In this document: positions 1,923 to 54,696 of the stretch, in pieces
How the letters are laid out: each line of letters begins with the position of its first letter
How positions within the stretch are numbered: the first letter of the stretch is position 1
Source: Thermodesulforhabdaceae bacterium
GTDB lineage: Bacteria; Desulfobacterota; Syntrophobacteria; Syntrophobacterales; Thermodesulforhabdaceae
Reading direction: 5' to 3'
Assembly: GCA_037482015.1 (NCBI GenBank)
Contig: JBBFKT010000011.1
Coordinates: 1-64,000, forward strand
Length of the DNA stretch: 64,000 nucleotides
The notes under the pieces: generated by a model
Seen by the model: the letters and a program-made list of their open reading frames with translations, nothing else
Databases searched by the model: none
What the model was told of the DNA's origin: nothing
Position numbers and translations under genes: made by a program

Positions 1923-3365
1923 TTAAGGAGAATCTGCGTAAGGATTGTAACCGTGAGCATTAATTTCAGCAATAAGTCGCGCTAGCTTATCTATAGGATC
2001 ATCTTCTACTTTATATTTAAGGAGTTCCGGATGAGAATCTATGTAAGAAGTATCGAATCTTCTGGCTTTAAAATCCGGCTCATCAACTATTGCTCTATAA
2101 AAGGGAATTGTTGTTTTCACACCCACGATGTTAAAACCATCTAGGGCTCTTCTGAGACGGTCAACCGCTTCTTCCCAGGTAAAGCCATAGACTGTGAGCT
2201 TAACAATTAGAGAATCGTAAAACCGTGGAATCTCATATCCCTGATAGGCTGCCCCATCCAGACGTATACCATGTCCACCGGGAGACTGATAAACTTCAAT
2301 AACGCCGGGCTGAGGAATAAACCCTGCTTGTGGATCCTCAGCGTTAATTCTAAGTTCAATAGCACACCCACGAATTACCACATCTTCCTGCCTTATTGAA
2401 AGACGTTCCCCAGCAGCGATACGAATCTGCTCTCGAACTATATCAAAACCGGTAACCATCTCAGTAACAGTATGTTCCACTTGAATACGAGTGTTAACTT
2501 CAAGAAAATAGTACTGATCTTCCTCATCAACTAAAAATTCCACTGTGCCAGCATTAACGTAGTTTGCCGCTTTGGCAGCCCTTACCGCTGCATCGCAAAC
2601 TCGTTCTTCCACAAGTGGTGGGAGCATAGCTGGAGCAATTTCGATAAGCTTTTGATGTCTTCTCTGAATAGAACAATTACGTGTTCCTAGATGGATGATG
2701 GAACCATAAGCATCGGCAAGGATTTGAACTTCCACGTGGCGGGGTTTTTTTAGTCCCTTTTCCAGATAAATATCTGGATTTCCAAAGGCAAGCTTCGCTT
2801 CAGATCGAGCAACCTTAAGTGCTCTCAGTAGTTCATCTTCGGAATAAACCGCTCTGATACCTCGTCCTCCTCCTCCAGAAACAGCCTTCACCATAATAGG
2901 AAAACCATGTTGTCTGGCAAAATTGAGCGCCTTTTCATTACCTTCTTCACCATCTGGCAAAATTCCACTCCCAGGAATTAAGGGAATCCCAACCGATTCC
3001 ATAATTTTTCTAGCAATTACCTTACTACTCATGTTCCAAATCACATCGGAGGGAGGTCCAACAAATATAAGTCCTGCTTCGCGGCATCTTTTGGGAAATT
3101 CCGGATTTTCTGAAAGGAATCCATAACCGGGATGAATTGCTTCTGCTCCAACTTTCTTGGCAACCTGAATGATTTTGTCGATGTCGAGATAATCCTTTCT
3201 GGGTCCTGGACCAATACATACTGCCTCGTCGGCTCTCATAATATGCATGGCAAAACGATCTGTTTCTTCGTAAATAGCTACAGTCTTTATGCCCAGCTCT
3301 TCAGCCGCCCGCATAATTCGGATAGCAATTTCTCCTCTATTGGCAACCAGAAGCTTCTTAAACAT
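1923..3365 (-). CDS. Biotin carboxylase (ATP-grasp) subunit of acyl-CoA/pyruvate carboxylase
   Basis: A 480-residue, full-length biotin carboxylase (AccC/PycA family). It carboxylates biotin on a carrier protein using ATP and bicarbonate. Domain order is classical: N-terminal Rossmann-like domain starting MFKKLLVANRGEIAIRI, ATP-grasp with the glycine-rich loop GGGGRG (about 165-170), EVNTRIQVEHTVTE catalytic segment (about 288-301), and the C-terminal domain with RINAEDP. A good ribosome site (AAGGAG) lies upstream of the ATG. Pairing with the carboxyltransferase gene downstream suggests a two- or three-component pyruvate carboxylase or transcarboxylase, rather than the acetyl-CoA carboxylase AccC, but sequence alone cannot settle which. 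No biotin carrier is encoded in the window. Confidence 0.88.
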   Translation of the reverse strand: MFKKLLVANRGEIAIRIMRAAEELGIKTVAIYEETDRFAMHIMRADEAVCIGPGPRKDYLDIDKIIQVAKKVGAEAIHPGYGFLSENPEFPKRCREAGLIFVGPPSDVIWNMSSKVIARKIMESVGIPLIPGSGILPDGEEGNEKALNFARQHGFPIMVKAVSGGGGRGIRAVYSEDELLRALKVARSEAKLAFGNPDIYLEKGLKKPRHVEVQILADAYGSIIHLGTRNCSIQRRHQKLIEIAPAMLPPLVEERVCDAAVRAAKAANYVNAGTVEFLVDEEDQYYFLEVNTRIQVEHTVTEMVTGFDIVREQIRIAAGERLSIRQEDVVIRGCAIELRINAEDPQAGFIPQPGVIEVYQSPGGHGIRLDGAAYQGYEIPRFYDSLIVKLTVYGFTWEEAVDRLRRALDGFNIVGVKTTIPFYRAIVDEPDFKARRFDTSYIDSHPELLKYKVEDDPIDKLARLIAEINAHGYNPYADSP

Positions 3366-47627: not shown

Positions 47628-47657
47628 TTGACCGCCTTAAAGCTTTCAGAGTATAAG
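47628..47657 (+). promoter_or_regulatory. Candidate sigma-70 promoter of the redox island
   Basis: TTGACC (47628-47633) and TATAAG (47652-47657) are 18 bases apart. Transcription would start near 47664, about 48 bases before the ATG at 47712. This is the best promoter match in the 230 bases between the MITE-like element and the first gene. Confidence 0.55.
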
Positions 47658-47711
47658 AAAACAAAGTCTTCGCAAACGATAACCCGTAAAAGTTTAGCGA
47701 AGGAGAGAAAA

Positions 47712-48200
47712 ATGAAAGAGATTTTTGTTCGTATAGATCGTTGTGTAGGATGTCGTTCCTGTGAGTTAGCCTGCGCTGTAGAGCATTCCCGATCTAAAAA
47801 TCTGTTAGAAGCAATTTCTGAAATTCCTCGACCAAGAAGAAGACTATATGTTGAACAGATCAAAGATCGGAAAGTGCCTTTTCTGTGCCGCCACTGTGAA
47901 GATGCTCCATGTGTGCGAGCTTGCAGGACTAGTGCTTTAAGCCAGGATCCTATAACTAACATAGTAACTCACAATCCAGACCGCTGCATCGGATGCTGGC
48001 TCTGTGCTATGGTATGCCCTTACGGGGTTATAAATCGAGAAGAAGAACGACGAATTGCAATAAAATGTGACAGATGTCCGGAAAGGGCCGAACCAGCCTG
48101 TGTCCAAGCCTGCCCGACAAAGGCTCTGGTTTTTGCTGAAGAACAGGAATTTGCGAAACTTGTTCGGCGTGAAGCTATTTCTCAGATACTTCACGGATAA
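47712..48200 (+). CDS. CooF-like 4Fe-4S dicluster electron-transfer protein
   Basis: From the ATG at 47712, preceded by AAGGAGAG, 162 residues. Cys motifs are CVGCRSCELAC, CRHCEDAPCVRAC, CIGCWLCAMVC and CDRCPERAEPACVQACP, giving up to four clusters in the HycB/CooF pattern. Such proteins pass electrons between a catalytic subunit and a partner. No signal peptide, so cytoplasmic. It ends five bases before the formate-dehydrogenase-like gene and probably serves as its electron acceptor. Confidence 0.9.
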   Translation: MKEIFVRIDRCVGCRSCELACAVEHSRSKNLLEAISEIPRPRRRLYVEQIKDRKVPFLCRHCEDAPCVRACRTSALSQDPITNIVTHNPDRCIGCWLCAMVCPYGVINREEERRIAIKCDRCPERAEPACVQACPTKALVFAEEQEFAKLVRREAISQILHG

Positions 48201-48205
48201 GCTTT

Positions 48206-50251
48206 ATGACAGGAAGCTCGCGTAAGGTCTCTGTTATATGCCCTTACTGCGGCGCTGGATGCAGATTGAACCTCATTGTAGAAAATGGAAAAACGACAAG
48301 CATAGAGTATGATCCTGACCATCCAGTGTCACTAGGGGCTCTTTGCCCCAAAGGGATTTCAGCCGTCGAACTTATTAACCATCCCGAACGGCTCACCTTT
48401 CCTGTTATTCGAAAACCCAACGGAACAATACGTCGCATTAGCTGGGATGAAGCTCTAAAATTTATTGCCGAAAAGCTCCGTCAAATACGATCAGACTTTG
48501 GCGCAGATGCTGTTGGTTTTTTAGCATCAGCCAAGGCTTCTAACGAAGAAAACTACTTATTTCAAAAACTAGCCCGCCTTTTCGGTTCTCCCCACGTAGA
48601 TCACTGCGCTAGACTCTGCCACGCTCCATCTATTGTAGCACTTAGTCGAGCTTTCGGATCAGGCGCTATGACCAACCCAATAGCAGATCTGGAAAACTCT
48701 CGATGTATCCTGATAATCGGCTCCAACTTTTCCGAAAACCACCCGGTGGTATCGCGTTGGGTATGGAATGCAAAAGATCGTGGAGCCTTCATAATAGCAG
48801 TCGATCCTCGGAAAACTCCAACAACCGAGATAGCTCATCTTCATCTTATGATCAAACCGGGAACAGATGGAATACTCCTAAATGCTATCATGGCACAAAT
48901 TCTTCGCGAAGGGCTAGCAAACTACGATTTTATTGCATCTCGAACCGAAGGTTTTGAAAATCTTAAGGCAAAGCTTCAAAAAATCGATGTTACTAAGGCA
49001 GCCGAACAGGTGGGAGTGCCAGCAGGTGATATTGTGATAGCTGCTCGTAAATATGCTGCATCTTCCGCATCCGCTATAATCTACTGCATGGGAATCACTC
49101 AACATCGCAACGGAACAGCCTATGCCGCATCCTGCGCAAACTTGGCTCTTTTATGCGGGCAGATTGGAAGACCCGGAACGGGTCTATTTCCACTACGAGG
49201 ACAGAATAATGTCCAGGGTGCATCGGATATGGGTGCTCTTGCGGAATTTCTTCCCGGTTATGTTCGAGCTGACGATTCGGAAAAAAGGCGCATCATAGCA
49301 AAGCAGTGGGGATGTGATGATCTTCCATCCGGTGGATTAAGTGTCACGGAAATCATTAATGCTATCCTAGACAACAAAATAAAAGCTCTGTTCGTGATGG
49401 GAGAAAATCCCATTGTGTCGGATCCTTCAGCATCAGAAACCGAAAAAGCTCTGTCAAAGCTAGACATTCTGGTTGTGCAGGATCCTTTCATGACCGAAAC
49501 AGCAGGCTTTGCTCACATCGTTCTTCCCGCAGCAATGTGGGCGGAAAAGTCAGGAAGTTACACCAACACAGAACGTAGAATTCAATGGTCGCCGAAGGCT
49601 CTGGATCCACCGGGTGAAGCAAAACCAGATTTGTGGATCATCGGAAACCTCGGCAAGTTACTTGGACTTTGGGAAACAATACCGCAACCTCAGGATGTGC
49701 TAAGAGAAATCAATCGAGTGGTTCCGTTTTATGGTGGTGTCACCCCTGAACGCATAGAAACGTCCAGGGAAGGACTTATCTGGCCATGTTTGAACGAACA
49801 TCATGAGGGAACACCCATTCTCTATTCTGAAAAGTTTCATCGAGAAAACGGACGTGCTCTATTCACTGTTCCGGACGGTGACTTTGAAGACTTAAAATCC
49901 CACGAACAATTCGCACTTATAACAGGACGAGTCGTTGTTCATTATAATTCTGGATCATTCACAAGAAGGCTTCCATCACTGATGCGCTACAGTTCAAAAC
50001 TTGAAGTAACATTACACCCTTATGATGCGAGTAAGCTCGATGTTAAGGACGGAAACATTGTATTGGTAAAAACTTCCAGCGGAACCGTTGAAGCTGTAGC
50101 GAAAATTAGTTCTTCAGTCAGACAGGGAAGCGTTTTTATGCCATTTCATTTTCCTGAAGCTAATAAACTGACCACAAGGGATCTGGATCCTATTGCCCGG
50201 ATTCCCTCTTTCAAAGATGCTCAATGCCAACTAATTAAGAAGGAGCAATAA
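48206..50251 (+). CDS. Cytoplasmic formate-dehydrogenase-like molybdopterin enzyme (Cys type)
   Basis: A 681-residue bis-molybdopterin oxidoreductase of the FdhF family. The 4Fe-4S site is CPYCGAGCRLNL followed by GALCPKG. The metal ligand is Cys in HCARLCHAPS; in FdhH the same place is selenocysteine (CCARVUH), but here the codon is TGC. Later blocks are GTDGILLNAIMAQIL, GTGLFPLRGQNNVQGASDMG and the C-terminal cofactor-binding domain from about 555. There is no Tat signal, so it works in the cytoplasm. It should interconvert formate and CO2 (or a related substrate) with the flanking ferredoxins. Confidence 0.88.
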   Translation: MTGSSRKVSVICPYCGAGCRLNLIVENGKTTSIEYDPDHPVSLGALCPKGISAVELINHPERLTFPVIRKPNGTIRRISWDEALKFIAEKLRQIRSDFGADAVGFLASAKASNEENYLFQKLARLFGSPHVDHCARLCHAPSIVALSRAFGSGAMTNPIADLENSRCILIIGSNFSENHPVVSRWVWNAKDRGAFIIAVDPRKTPTTEIAHLHLMIKPGTDGILLNAIMAQILREGLANYDFIASRTEGFENLKAKLQKIDVTKAAEQVGVPAGDIVIAARKYAASSASAIIYCMGITQHRNGTAYAASCANLALLCGQIGRPGTGLFPLRGQNNVQGASDMGALAEFLPGYVRADDSEKRRIIAKQWGCDDLPSGGLSVTEIINAILDNKIKALFVMGENPIVSDPSASETEKALSKLDILVVQDPFMTETAGFAHIVLPAAMWAEKSGSYTNTERRIQWSPKALDPPGEAKPDLWIIGNLGKLLGLWETIPQPQDVLREINRVVPFYGGVTPERIETSREGLIWPCLNEHHEGTPILYSEKFHRENGRALFTVPDGDFEDLKSHEQFALITGRVVVHYNSGSFTRRLPSLMRYSSKLEVTLHPYDASKLDVKDGNIVLVKTSSGTVEAVAKISSSVRQGSVFMPFHFPEANKLTTRDLDPIARIPSFKDAQCQLIKKEQ

Positions 50252-50257
50252 CACAAC

Positions 50258-50812
50258 ATGGCGGGTTGGAAAGTTATCATAAAGCCTGAGCGCTGTATTG
50301 GATGCCATGCTTGCGAGATAGCTTGCGAACAGACTCACGGGGGAATTGGAAACATACAGCTTCGTGGTGCTCCGGTTTTTTGTCGCCACTGTGAAGTCCC
50401 CCCCTGTATTATCTCCTGCTACAGAAATGCTCTCGAAATGCAGGATGGTAGAGTTCTCCTAAGAAGAGAACTTTGCACCAATTGTGGTATTTGCGTTCTT
50501 GCCTGCCCATTTGGAGCCATAATGACGACAATGATAATCCGTAAAATAGAATCCAGGGATGTAACTAATCATAAGGAGTCTTTGCTGGGTCGCTTTTTGA
50601 GTAAACAAGATCTCTCCAGGGAGTGCCAGAATCTTCTGGTTCATAAATGTGATGGATGCATTGAAAAAGCCGGGGCGGAAAAAGTTTGTCCTGCCTGTGC
50701 CGCCACATGTCCTTCTGGAGCGATCGAATACAGAAAAGATATCTCAGGAATTTTATACTCAAAACGAATAAAAGCTTACGAAACCTACCTGTTAATTGAT
50801 AAAACTGTTTAG
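50258..50812 (+). CDS. Second CooF-like 4Fe-4S electron-transfer protein
   Basis: A 184-residue protein with CIGCHACEIAC, CRHCEVPPCIISC, CTNCGICVLAC and a modified last site, CDGCIEK followed by CPACAATCP. An insert of about 35 residues before the last site is longer than in the ferredoxin at 47712. It starts six bases after the formate-dehydrogenase-like gene. It is the likely electron carrier between that enzyme and further partners, and has no signal peptide. Confidence 0.87.
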   Translation: MAGWKVIIKPERCIGCHACEIACEQTHGGIGNIQLRGAPVFCRHCEVPPCIISCYRNALEMQDGRVLLRRELCTNCGICVLACPFGAIMTTMIIRKIESRDVTNHKESLLGRFLSKQDLSRECQNLLVHKCDGCIEKAGAEKVCPACAATCPSGAIEYRKDISGILYSKRIKAYETYLLIDKTV

Positions 50813-50825
50813 AAGAGGCACTACC

Positions 50826-51197
50826 GTGAAGGGGATTTTTATCAGTCCAGATTTATGTATAGGATGTTACGCTTGTTCGAATGTCTGCGAGCGTGGAATT
50901 GCACGACTTGAAGAAACAAAAGAATTTAGAAAAATTATTGTATCTGGTTTTTGTCCAGAGGAATGCGAAAGTTGCAAAGATGTCTGCCCTACTGAAGCCA
51001 TAAAGGTTATAGAAAACCCCATACCTTCTCAAGAAATAGTCTTCAGGTTGACTCCATGCCGACGCTGTGGCATTCCAACTGCTCCAGAACGCATGCTAGA
51101 TTTCATCTCCCGAAGAATGAATCAGCCTCTTTTTGAACTTGATCTCTGTATCACCTGCCGACAACAACTTACGTGGGATGTAATTCGAAAAAGCTAA
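50826..51197 (+). CDS. Ferredoxin-like protein with extra CxxC pairs
   Basis: From the GTG at 50826 (AGAGG ribosome site) 123 residues. It has one normal cluster motif (CIGCYACSNVC), one rearranged motif (CPEECESCKDVCP) and two CxxC pairs (PCRRCG and LCITC) that might bind zinc or another metal. I do not recognise a named family. It sits in the same run with overlapping or very short gaps and may be an adaptor for one of the two molybdoenzymes. Confidence 0.75.
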   Translation: MKGIFISPDLCIGCYACSNVCERGIARLEETKEFRKIIVSGFCPEECESCKDVCPTEAIKVIENPIPSQEIVFRLTPCRRCGIPTAPERMLDFISRRMNQPLFELDLCITCRQQLTWDVIRKS

Positions 51198-51277
51198 CTA
51201 ACCTATACCACTATCACAACATCCATGTTCACGGAATAAGGTTGATCCTCATCTAATCTAGGAGGATAAAAAACATT

Positions 51278-52216
51278 ATGAAAGATTTTGTAATCGAATT
51301 TTTGATTTGTCCTTCCTGCCTTCCTGAAGAATACTCTCTCCATGAGAGAATAAAGCATCGAGATGGAAACGATATTATCTCTGGAGAGCTTTTATGTCCC
51401 AACTGTCGCAAAGTCTTTCCTATCTGTGATGGCGTCGCTTTACTAAATATAACCCCGGAACAGATACCTCTTCCGGGCAATAAATATGAAACTCCTCAAT
51501 CTCTCTCATCATACCTTTGGGGACATTACGGGAATCTTATGGGAGAAGAAGAGCACATAGATGCTTATCAGACATGGGTTGATGTTGTGGACGAATCCCG
51601 AGGACTAGCCCTTGATATTGGATGCGCGGTGGGACGATTTTCACTGGAAATGAGCACAAAAAGCGATATGGTGGTCGGAATTGATCTTTCACTTCTTTTT
51701 ATCAAAACAGCTCGTAAGATAGCAAAAGAAGGAAGCCTAAAGGCCAAGCTCTTTGAAGAAGGATTAATCGCCCGAGAACAAGAATTTTCTCTTCCATCAT
51801 CGTGGCATCCAGAAAAAGTTGAGTTTATCGTAGCCGATGCCCTTAACCTTCCATTTAAGTCTGGAGTTGCTTCTCAGGTTTCTTCTCTGAATGTTATTGA
51901 CAAAGTCCCAAGCCCATTAAGACACATAAAGGAAATGGACAGAGTTTCCCGAAAAAGCGGAGCCCAGTGCCTTATATCGGATCCTTTCTCATGGTCTCCA
52001 GAGGCCTCACCCGTTGACGAATGGCTGGGAGGCAAAGAAAACGGTGCCTTTTCAGGCTATGGAATTGAAAATATTATAAAAATTCTTAACTCAAGAGAAA
52101 CTTTTTTATTCCCACCATGGAGAATAATCTACAGAGGACATGTGTGGTGGAAGTTAAGAAATCACCGAAACCATTTCGAATTGATCCGTAGCCTTTTTAT
52201 AAAGGCAGCTAGATAA
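51278..52216 (+). CDS. Class I SAM methyltransferase with N-terminal Trm112-like zinc ribbon
   Basis: A 312-residue protein. Residues 1-60 form a Trm112-like ribbon (LICPSCLPEEYS, ELLCPNCRKVFPICDGVALLNI). A Rossmann methyltransferase domain follows, with LALDIGCAVGRFSLEMS (SAM site, about 108-124), VVGIDLS and VEFIVADALNLPFKSGVASQV. AGGAGGAT precedes the ATG. The target is unknown; a small molecule, quinone or polypeptide are all possible. Its place between an iron-sulfur protein and a molybdoenzyme suggests cofactor or substrate modification for that pathway. Confidence 0.82.
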   Translation: MKDFVIEFLICPSCLPEEYSLHERIKHRDGNDIISGELLCPNCRKVFPICDGVALLNITPEQIPLPGNKYETPQSLSSYLWGHYGNLMGEEEHIDAYQTWVDVVDESRGLALDIGCAVGRFSLEMSTKSDMVVGIDLSLLFIKTARKIAKEGSLKAKLFEEGLIAREQEFSLPSSWHPEKVEFIVADALNLPFKSGVASQVSSLNVIDKVPSPLRHIKEMDRVSRKSGAQCLISDPFSWSPEASPVDEWLGGKENGAFSGYGIENIIKILNSRETFLFPPWRIIYRGHVWWKLRNHRNHFELIRSLFIKAAR

Positions 52217-52238
52217 ATAAAAAGTCAGGAGAAAAAAC

Positions 52239-54314
52239 ATGGTAAAATATACAGTGTGTAGACTCTGCTCAGCTTGCTGTCCCATTGAAGTAAAAATAGA
52301 AGAAAACAGACTGGTGGGAGCGGAAAGGCTTTCTTTTATTCCTCCACATAAGCGTCTAGTATGCCCTAAACTGAAAGCTTCTACTGAAATTGTTTATTCA
52401 AAAAGTCGCCTACTAAAACCGCTAATCCGAAAAAATAGAAATGAAGAATTTCGGGAAGCTTCCTGGGAAGATGCTTTATCCTTTGCAGCCGAAAAACTTC
52501 AAAAAATCAAAGATTTTAATGGAGCAAAGGCTGTTGCGTGGCTTAGGGGCATGGCTGCCGATTGGGGTGCCCCATGGGACTACGCAAACCGACTCATGAG
52601 TGCCTTCGGTTCCCCAAACGCTATAGGAAACGGTTCAGTATGTCATGTTGCCAGAGAAATGGCTCACACATACACCTACGGAGCGATGACGGTTCCCATG
52701 GCAAAAGATTCAAAGTGTATTGTGGTCTGGGGAAAAAATGACAAAAACACTGCTCCAGCTATGGCTGAAGCCATTATTTTTGCAAAGGAGCGAGGAGCAA
52801 AGCTCATTGTGGTGGATCCAGTCAGGACTTTTTTTGCCAAACAAGCTGATATCTGGCTTCAGATAAGACCTGGCTACGATGGACTCCTTGCCATGTCCAT
52901 GCTACACGAAATCATCAAGCAGGGTCTTTACGACGAGGCTTTTATAGAATCTTACTGCATTGGCTTTGATGAACTTTGTGGCGTGGCACTGGACGATCGT
53001 TACAGCCCTGAAAAAGTCTCCAAAACTCTATGGATTGATGCCAAGCTAATACGTGAATCGGCTCGGATTTACGCATCAACAAAACCTGCATGTATCATTG
53101 ATGGAAACGGTCTTGATATGCAACTTGAGGTGTTTCAAGCTACAAGAGCAGTGGCAATTTTGCGAGCGGTTACAGGGAATATTGACATCCCAGGCGGTGA
53201 TTTCATGCCACAACCTGTGCCTTTGAAAAATATTCAACTAAAAGAACTTCTTCCTTCAGACGTTGAACCAATCACAGCTTCCTATCCTTTGTTTAGTAAA
53301 TTCCATCCAACCTGGGGACTTCACGCTCAATCCTGCCTTATTGATGCCATCCTTGATGAAAAACCTTACCCCATTAAAGCAGTTATTGTGCAGTCGGGAA
53401 ACCCGGCAATCACAATGACTGAGTCAAATAGAGTAGCTTCAGCTCTGGAGAGGCTGGAATTTCTGGTGGTAGTCGATCTTTTCCGAAACAGAACTTCGGA
53501 GTTTGCCCACGTGATACTTCCAGCCACAACATGCTTTGAAAAAACTCAATTGAACCGGGCTTCAATGAGAAACAGTCTGGTGGTATTGCAAAATCAGGTA
53601 ATTCCATGGGTTGGTGAAAGCCGCCCTGACTGGAAAATTGTCTTCGATTTGGCTCATTATCTTGGTCTGGGACAATATTTCCCATGGAAAGACGTAGAAG
53701 AAGCGATTGACGAACAGTTAGAACCTTCGGGGCTCTCGGTGGAAAAACTGAGAAAACACCCCCAGGGGCTCTATGCTTCGGCTCTAACCTATGAAAAACA
53801 TCGCACCGATGGCTTTCCAACCCCATCTGGAAAGGTAGAGCTTTTTTCAGAGAGACTGGAAGCCGCAGGTTATGATCCAGTGCCTTATAAAAGTGGTTTT
53901 CCCGAAGATCCTATAAGTTTTTCAGAACTGAAAGACCAATACCCAATAATAGGCATAAGTGGCGAAAGAAGAAATTGCTATACTCACACTCAATTCTTTC
54001 AGATCCCATCACTTAGAAAACTCGATCCTGAACCAGCTATAGAGATTCACCCTGCCGATGCGGATAAACTAGGTATAGAAACAGGAAAGGAAGTGCTCGT
54101 TTCCACTCCAAAAGGTGAAGTCAAAATGAAGACCCGAATTTCCGATGTTGTGCCTCAAGGAGTAATTCGCATCCCATGGGGCTGGGGGGAAGTAAATCCT
54201 ATGTGGAATGTCAACAATCTCACGGATGATGGAGTGCGAAATCCCATAACGAGCACACCATCAAACAGGAGCTTTTACTGTAAAATAGAAGCGTTACAGA
54301 AAGAGTTAAGTTAG
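52239..54314 (+). CDS. Second cytoplasmic molybdopterin oxidoreductase
   Basis: A 691-residue enzyme of the DMSO-reductase superfamily. The N-terminal cluster site is CRLCSACCPIEVKI with RLVCPKLKAS; the likely metal ligand is Cys in GSVCHVAREMAH (about 131-142). Cofactor-binding blocks are VVWGKNDKNTAPAMAEAI, RPGYDGLLAMSML and the C-terminal EIHPADADKLGIETG and RIPWGWGE. It is closest in outline to polysulfide, thiosulfate or arsenate reductase-like catalytic subunits, but has no Tat signal, so the substrate must be cytoplasmic. Function within the group is not assigned. Confidence 0.83.
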   Translation: MVKYTVCRLCSACCPIEVKIEENRLVGAERLSFIPPHKRLVCPKLKASTEIVYSKSRLLKPLIRKNRNEEFREASWEDALSFAAEKLQKIKDFNGAKAVAWLRGMAADWGAPWDYANRLMSAFGSPNAIGNGSVCHVAREMAHTYTYGAMTVPMAKDSKCIVVWGKNDKNTAPAMAEAIIFAKERGAKLIVVDPVRTFFAKQADIWLQIRPGYDGLLAMSMLHEIIKQGLYDEAFIESYCIGFDELCGVALDDRYSPEKVSKTLWIDAKLIRESARIYASTKPACIIDGNGLDMQLEVFQATRAVAILRAVTGNIDIPGGDFMPQPVPLKNIQLKELLPSDVEPITASYPLFSKFHPTWGLHAQSCLIDAILDEKPYPIKAVIVQSGNPAITMTESNRVASALERLEFLVVVDLFRNRTSEFAHVILPATTCFEKTQLNRASMRNSLVVLQNQVIPWVGESRPDWKIVFDLAHYLGLGQYFPWKDVEEAIDEQLEPSGLSVEKLRKHPQGLYASALTYEKHRTDGFPTPSGKVELFSERLEAAGYDPVPYKSGFPEDPISFSELKDQYPIIGISGERRNCYTHTQFFQIPSLRKLDPEPAIEIHPADADKLGIETGKEVLVSTPKGEVKMKTRISDVVPQGVIRIPWGWGEVNPMWNVNNLTDDGVRNPITSTPSNRSFYCKIEALQKELS

Positions 54315-54384
54315 CTTTGAAAAGTTGAGGTGTAAGCAACTCAGCAAACCGTTATCAACTCCAAACAACGCGGGAGGTAAAGGG

Positions 54385-54696
54385 ATGAAAATTCTCTTCA
54401 TTATTTCAACAGACGATGCAGAAACGATGTATAACGCCATGAGACTTGCAAATGTAAGTGTAAAAAAAGGCGATGAAGTAAGCGTTTTCATGCTCGGAAA
54501 AGCAGTGACTTTCGAAAAACTGCCTTTAGAGCCTTTCAACGTAATGGAACAAATAAACTCCTTTCAGGGAGATTTTTATGTCTGAGGCACATGCATGAAA
54601 GCCCACGGTCTTGTGGCTTCGTCCACCTGTCCTGTCGGATGGATGGACGATCTTTACGAACTTGTGAAAGAGGCTGAAAAGATATTAACATTTTAA
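54385..54696 (+). CDS. DsrE-family selenoprotein with in-frame UGA (Sec67)
   Basis: Read through the TGA at 54583-54585 this gives 103 residues; stopping there leaves only 66. The N-terminus MKILFIISTDDAETMYNAMRLANV and VFMLGKAVTFEKL are typical of the DsrE/DsrF sulfurtransferase-like fold. After GDFYV the TGA falls exactly where relatives have the first Cys of CGTC (here Sec-GTC), and the frame continues with MKAHGLVASSTCPVGWMDDL to a TAA at 54694. GGGAGG lies seven bases before the ATG. Right after the TGA is a SECIS-like hairpin. The protein should carry or reduce a sulfur or selenium species for the molybdoenzyme just upstream. Confidence 0.87.
54597..54620 (+). promoter_or_regulatory. 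SECIS element for selenocysteine insertion
   Basis: A hairpin starting 11 bases after the UGA: eight base pairs (GAA-GCC-AC with GT-GGC-TTC) interrupted by two single bulged bases (A54600 and C54604), closing a loop that reads GGTCTT (54607-54612). Bacterial SECIS elements place a GGUC(U) loop with a bulged base in the upper stem at this distance; in E. coli fdhF the loop begins 18 bases after the UGA, here 21. SelB would bind this loop. Confidence 0.82.

Follow-up and report, generated by a model that had tools for sequence, protein, structure and literature searches.

DsrE-like selenoproteins carrying a UxxC motif have been described several times. The Sargasso Sea yielded one in 2005 (PMC1088965) and Desulfovibrio vulgaris another in 2006 (PMC1794560), two subfamilies, DsrE 1 and DsrE 2, were distinguished in the GOS data (PMC2398784), and current tables contain the entry 'DsrE-like protein, PF02635, UxxC' (PMC13188914; also PMC1794560). 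In the DsrE superfamily, Cys78 of DsrE and TusD is an essential sulfur-binding residue that passes sulfur, and this position has been proposed to serve as active site throughout the superfamily (PMC3397948). DsrEFH itself has been reported to be absent from sulfate reducers (PMC3397948). We have analysed a stretch of 64,000 nucleotides from a Thermodesulforhabdaceae bacterium (contig JBBFKT010000011.1), hereafter the window, in which the first-pass annotation had noticed a DsrE-like selenoprotein hidden behind an in-frame UGA. That annotation implied an undiscovered family; however, the window protein belongs to the selenoprotein family already known as DsrE-like since 2005. The new feature is the strict occurrence of Sec-type DsrE in genomes that carry dsrA. 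In the open-licence literature, we did not find descriptions of this association, of the strictly Sec clade to which the window protein belongs, or of a second Sec clade.

The gene lies on the forward strand at 54385-54696. It consists of 66 codons from the ATG at 54385, the in-frame TGA at 54583-54585, 36 further codons and a TAA at 54694-54696, exactly as first noted, and a ribosome-binding site, cgggaggt, is seen directly in the sequence at 54370-54377 (forward strand), 7 nt 5' of the ATG. When the TGA is read through, the product has 103 residues with a predicted selenocysteine at position 67 in the motif U67-G-T-C70. The Pfam profile of DsrE (PF02635) matches this product over its whole length, with residues 1-103 on profile positions 1-116 (E 9.4e-10; score 39.1 bits, cut-off 22.7), which bears out the assignment to the DsrE type. 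Cys70, the partner of Sec67 (54592-54594, forward strand), and Cys82 of a CP motif, a possible resolving cysteine (54628-54630, forward strand), are both invariant in 19 sequences of the clade. None of the NCBIfam models matched the proteins that were scanned; therefore, automatic annotation probably gives a truncated DsrE or nothing. A terminator-like site at 54558-54571 within the gene was dismissed as a chance occurrence.

A structure model built from 47 diverse sequences reached a pLDDT of 95, and an earlier model from 19 close sequences (pLDDT 58) was discarded. The best PDB matches of the model were YchN (1jx7), DsrEFH (2hy5) and 3mc3, together with other DsrE/DsrF proteins, and the fold matches included 2hy5_A with a TM score of 0.83 and 2d1p_B with a Z score of 13.1. 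In the model, strand 4 ends at residue 67 and a helix begins there. The family profile also matched the YchN sequence over its whole length (E 8.7e-10), in an alignment that pairs Sec67 with Cys78, and Cys70 with the second cysteine of CKTC. By way of this alignment, Sec67 likely occupies the sulfur-accepting position of the DsrE superfamily and is the likely active site.

Homologues were retrieved with one genome per species. The intact homologues from this set (68 loci, 53-78% identity) all have TGA at the same codon, and altogether about 85 distinct homologues retain the TGA at the codon of Sec67. Carriers that can be grown in culture include Desulfoferrobacter suflitae and strain NaphS2. 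A phylum-wide search gave a match in 53 of 297 genomes, the nearest matches having one TGA each, whereas a plasmid search returned only distant DsrE proteins with at most 38% identity. Among 119 distinct aligned sequences, the Sec67 column is TGA in 109, TGC in 6 and TGT in 2; the remaining two are a TGG copy with an additional in-frame stop and a broken copy. The first-pass annotation had stated that homologues have cysteine at this position. Cys forms (ACGTCL) do exist, but they are more distant, with about 40% identity to the window protein. Sequences outside the clade of the window protein have either Cys or, once more, TGA in this column; within the clade, the approximately 85 distinct sequences included no intact Cys form. 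Nor did we find a homologue that ends naturally at residue 66, as every intact close homologue has the TGA.

In the tree, the clade of the window protein contains Sec forms exclusively, another Sec clade, with the motif AUGK, stands apart, and the Cys forms are placed between the two; supported branches force at least two changes. This second, distant clade of DsrE-type TGA frames (L146-L163 and L167) mostly has AUGK(C/L) and occurs only in dsrA-bearing genomes, and several of its members have no second cysteine (UGKL). Other arrangements were seen at single loci. L143 (G262:C77) has tandem DsrE genes about 35 bases apart, with a Cys form (ACGTC) upstream and a Sec form (UGVC) downstream, which are a possible Cys/Sec subunit pair, and L158 (G146:C1) has two adjoining DsrE-like frames with an in-frame TGA in each, in the motifs AUGAC and SULTC. 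A second Sec-type DsrE copy was found by profile search at L064. In the genus of G084, decaying Sec-DsrE copies (L169 and L144, in G118 and G241) occur in sister species of one that retains the gene; at L169, both gene ends are left and the middle, including the Sec codon, is lost.

Downstream of the TGA, a SECIS hairpin is located at 54597-54620 (forward strand), with the apical loop GGUCUU at 54607-54612. The hairpin had originally been described as starting 11 bases after the TGA with a GGTCT loop and two bulges, and folding of nt 15-39 from the TGA confirmed this, giving nine pairs, two one-base bulges, a start 11 nt 3' of the TGA and the tip GGUCU(U). A published model of bacterial SECIS elements specifies a loop of 3-9 nt with G in the first two positions and a stem of 4-16 bp, at 16-37 nt from the UGA and with an energy of at most -7.5 kcal/mol (PMC13188914). 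With its loop about 21 nt 3' of the UGA and -7.5 kcal/mol for 30 nt, the window hairpin agrees with this model in every respect; the energy is borderline, whereas the covariation is strong. The hairpin energy of the single sequence is not significant as proof of a SECIS element (z +0.46 for 58 nt, with 21% of synonymous recodings folding equally well), and covariation and synonymous constraint were used instead. In 28 sequences, 91% of stem cells are paired and four of the seven pairs vary on both sides. Pairing around a GG loop is retained in, among others, the stems CCCAC/GTGGG, CCCGC/GCGGG, CCCGT/ACGGG and GCAC/GTGC. The covariation score of the stem is 0.397 against 0.209 in shuffles, none of 500 of which reach it, and slid registers do not reach it either. 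In the twelve codons that follow the TGA, synonymous divergence is reduced from 0.83 to 0.36 and single codons predominate (TCC 99%, CAC 95%, GGT 93%, GAG 100% and GGA 94%, compared with 36-62% elsewhere). Synonymous change is suppressed at codons +5 to +12. Rfam models matched the hairpin region only far under their gathering scores.

The genome of the window encodes SelA, SelB and SelD, each above its curated cut-off, and selD itself contains an in-frame TGA, making it a Sec-type SelD with the site GUAAKIG. Of the four genes for which a search had been proposed, only selC was not found in the assembly, and it is missing together with its genomic neighbourhood. The sole match above the cut-off, which was also the best Rfam match, is a tRNA-Ser: the candidate tRNA-Sec at C1:790885 was rejected since ARAGORN calls it tRNA-Ser with the anticodon TGA. 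selC was present in all 20 relatives searched, at 72-80 bits, and in a congener it is located between cobT and yjbQ. The assembly is 95% complete in 32 contigs. Considering that cobT, yjbQ and the next gene, which is hypothetical, are likewise missing from it, the absence of selC is likely an assembly gap, probably one lost segment that also held cobT and yjbQ. Directly upstream of selD in the same genome lies yedF (L018, complement of 2511-3263), which encodes a SirA domain and a DsrE domain; the CGTC of the latter corresponds to the UGTC motif in the window, with Cys for Sec.

In the window, the DsrE gene is placed between an upstream molybdoenzyme and a downstream PhoH-like protein. The first-pass annotation had connected the protein with the molybdoenzyme. 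This connection did not hold, as the adjacency was found in none of the 68 homologous loci nor in a relative of the same genus, and an operon with the molybdoenzyme was accordingly rejected. When the open reading frames within 6 kb of the 68 loci were clustered, nothing occurred at more than six loci; the most frequent cluster, an ArsR-type regulator, reached six loci at variable distance. We therefore consider the molybdoenzyme context incidental, and operon evidence for a Dsr role is likewise absent. No DsrE-type gene adjoins the window gene, in which respect the locus is not a three-gene dsrE-dsrF-dsrH (tusD-tusC-tusB) cluster. The region upstream, at 47628-54314, encodes ferredoxin-like subunits and the alpha subunit of a formate dehydrogenase (TIGR01591, above cut-off) with Cys at the usual Sec position (ARLCHAPS). 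It also encodes a methyltransferase, part of which resembles Trm112, and a second molybdoenzyme that is divergent.

dsrA is present in every one of the 43 genomes that have a Sec-type DsrE of any kind, compared with 144 of the 297 genomes overall. The same is true of all 25 genomes with an intact member of the clade of the window protein, which represent 13 families, and three of the eight genomes with Cys forms have no dsrA. The Fisher value of 4e-9 for this association overstates it because the genomes are related, and the 13 separate families are the fairer count. On the one hand, selA is present in 269 of the 297 genomes and Sec-DsrE in only 43 of them; accordingly, Sec-type DsrE goes with dissimilatory sulfite reduction and not with selenium use as such. 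On the other hand, the clade of the window protein occurs in just 25 of the 144 dsrA genomes, and the protein is therefore not a core part of the sulfite-reduction pathway.

Several explanations for the gene can be weighed against these results. If the TGA were a true stop, the locus would encode a 66-residue DsrE fragment, and the frame could equally be a pseudogene or the product of a sequencing error. Although selC is missing from the assembly and the energy of the hairpin is ordinary, we regard this explanation as extremely improbable. Codons 1-66 have a pN/pS value of 0.177 and codons 80-103 one of 0.145, indicating equal purifying selection on both sides of the TGA, and this selection together with the conservation of the TGA cannot be explained by truncation, decay or error. 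A sequencing error that turned a Cys codon into TGA is excluded in particular because some 85 distinct sequences share it, and genuine decay looks different, as in the fragments at L138, L169 and L144. The covarying SECIS element and the presence of selA, selB and Sec-type selD are also against a true stop. We conclude that the window protein is very likely a UGTC selenoprotein of the DsrE type with Sec inserted at the active-site column, and in this respect the original reading was well founded.

With regard to the role of this selenoprotein, the first-pass annotation had considered both selenium and sulfur transfer. A selenium carrier toward SelD or formate dehydrogenase has been proposed for YedF, whose DsrE domain likewise has a CGTC motif, whose gene adjoins selD in this genome and which has been linked to selenium use (PMC5322559). 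For the window protein, however, this role is improbable, since YedF is already encoded in the genome, the Sec-DsrE has no SirA domain and is not matched by TIGR03527 at a threshold as loose as E 10, most selA genomes are without it while it tracks dsrA, and Cys takes the place of Sec in the formate dehydrogenase of the window. A general reductase for thiol-disulfide or peroxide substrates, using UxxC as its redox pair and unrelated to sulfur metabolism, is somewhat easier to accept but still unlikely. UxxC is a common redox motif of selenoproteins (PMC13188914), and the third conserved cysteine could resolve a selenenylsulfide; against this, the fold is that of DsrE/YchN and not thioredoxin, Sec67 aligns with the residue that accepts sulfur in the superfamily (PMC3397948), and the co-occurrence with dsrA is strict. 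The dsrA pattern thus speaks more for a protein that handles sulfane sulfur in parallel with sulfite reduction than for one that delivers selenium, and of the functions originally suggested, selenium-assisted sulfur transfer stays our best guess, judged from sequence and distribution.

Taken as a whole, the locus is probably best explained by a SelB-decoded Sec protein of the DsrE/YchN fold that handles sulfane sulfur. SelB, guided by the downstream hairpin, would insert Sec at the UGA at 54583 of a small one-domain protein, in which Sec67 would replace the sulfur-accepting cysteine (Cys78 in DsrE, TusD and YchN). Sec67 could then attack sulfane sulfur in a persulfide, polysulfide or trisulfide from dissimilatory sulfite reduction and carry it as Se-S. 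Cys70 would resolve the Se-S bond, with Cys82 in reserve, so that sulfide is released or the sulfur moves on to a partner, for example DsrC. A cellular thiol reductant would then regenerate the Sec67 protein. We propose this sulfane sulfur role of Sec67 with Cys70 tentatively, with a little less than even confidence, the substrate, partner and direction being deduced. A further-reaching reading, which we consider improbable, is that a lone Sec-dependent DsrE substitutes in some sulfate reducers for the DsrEFH that they lack; it would then move or remove the sulfur of the DsrC trisulfide or of polysulfide in the reductive Dsr pathway, and selenium chemistry would accelerate the exchange on sulfane sulfur. 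The restriction of the clade to dsrA genomes connects selenium with sulfite reduction in a way that can be tested, in organisms that reportedly have no DsrEFH.

In comparison with known systems, the window protein resembles most closely the published DsrE-like selenoproteins (AACY01486889 from the Sargasso Sea and WP_014524487.1 from Desulfovibrio vulgaris), with which it shares the Pfam family, the UxxC motif, a bacterial SECIS element and an origin in a Deltaproteobacterium; these may belong to the clade of the window protein, which is marked by UG-x-C and the distal CP, or to the second clade with AUGK. YchN of E. coli (1jx7) has the same fold with CKTC in register with UGTC, but it has Cys for Sec and no distal CP motif, and its function is not established. 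The fold and, by way of YchN, the Cys78 position are also shared with DsrE of DsrEFH and TusD of TusBCD; however, these are subunits of heterohexamers whose DsrF/H or TusB/C partners are encoded by adjacent genes, whereas the window has a lone Sec gene. The C-terminal DsrE domain of YedF (TIGR03527) has in common with the window protein the CGTC-type motif and a connection to selenium, but the latter is a DsrE-only protein of 103 residues, does not match TIGR03527 and is not encoded beside selD. Counterparts with Cys exist for almost every selenoprotein family (PMC13188914); in contrast, the clade of the window protein consists of Sec forms only.
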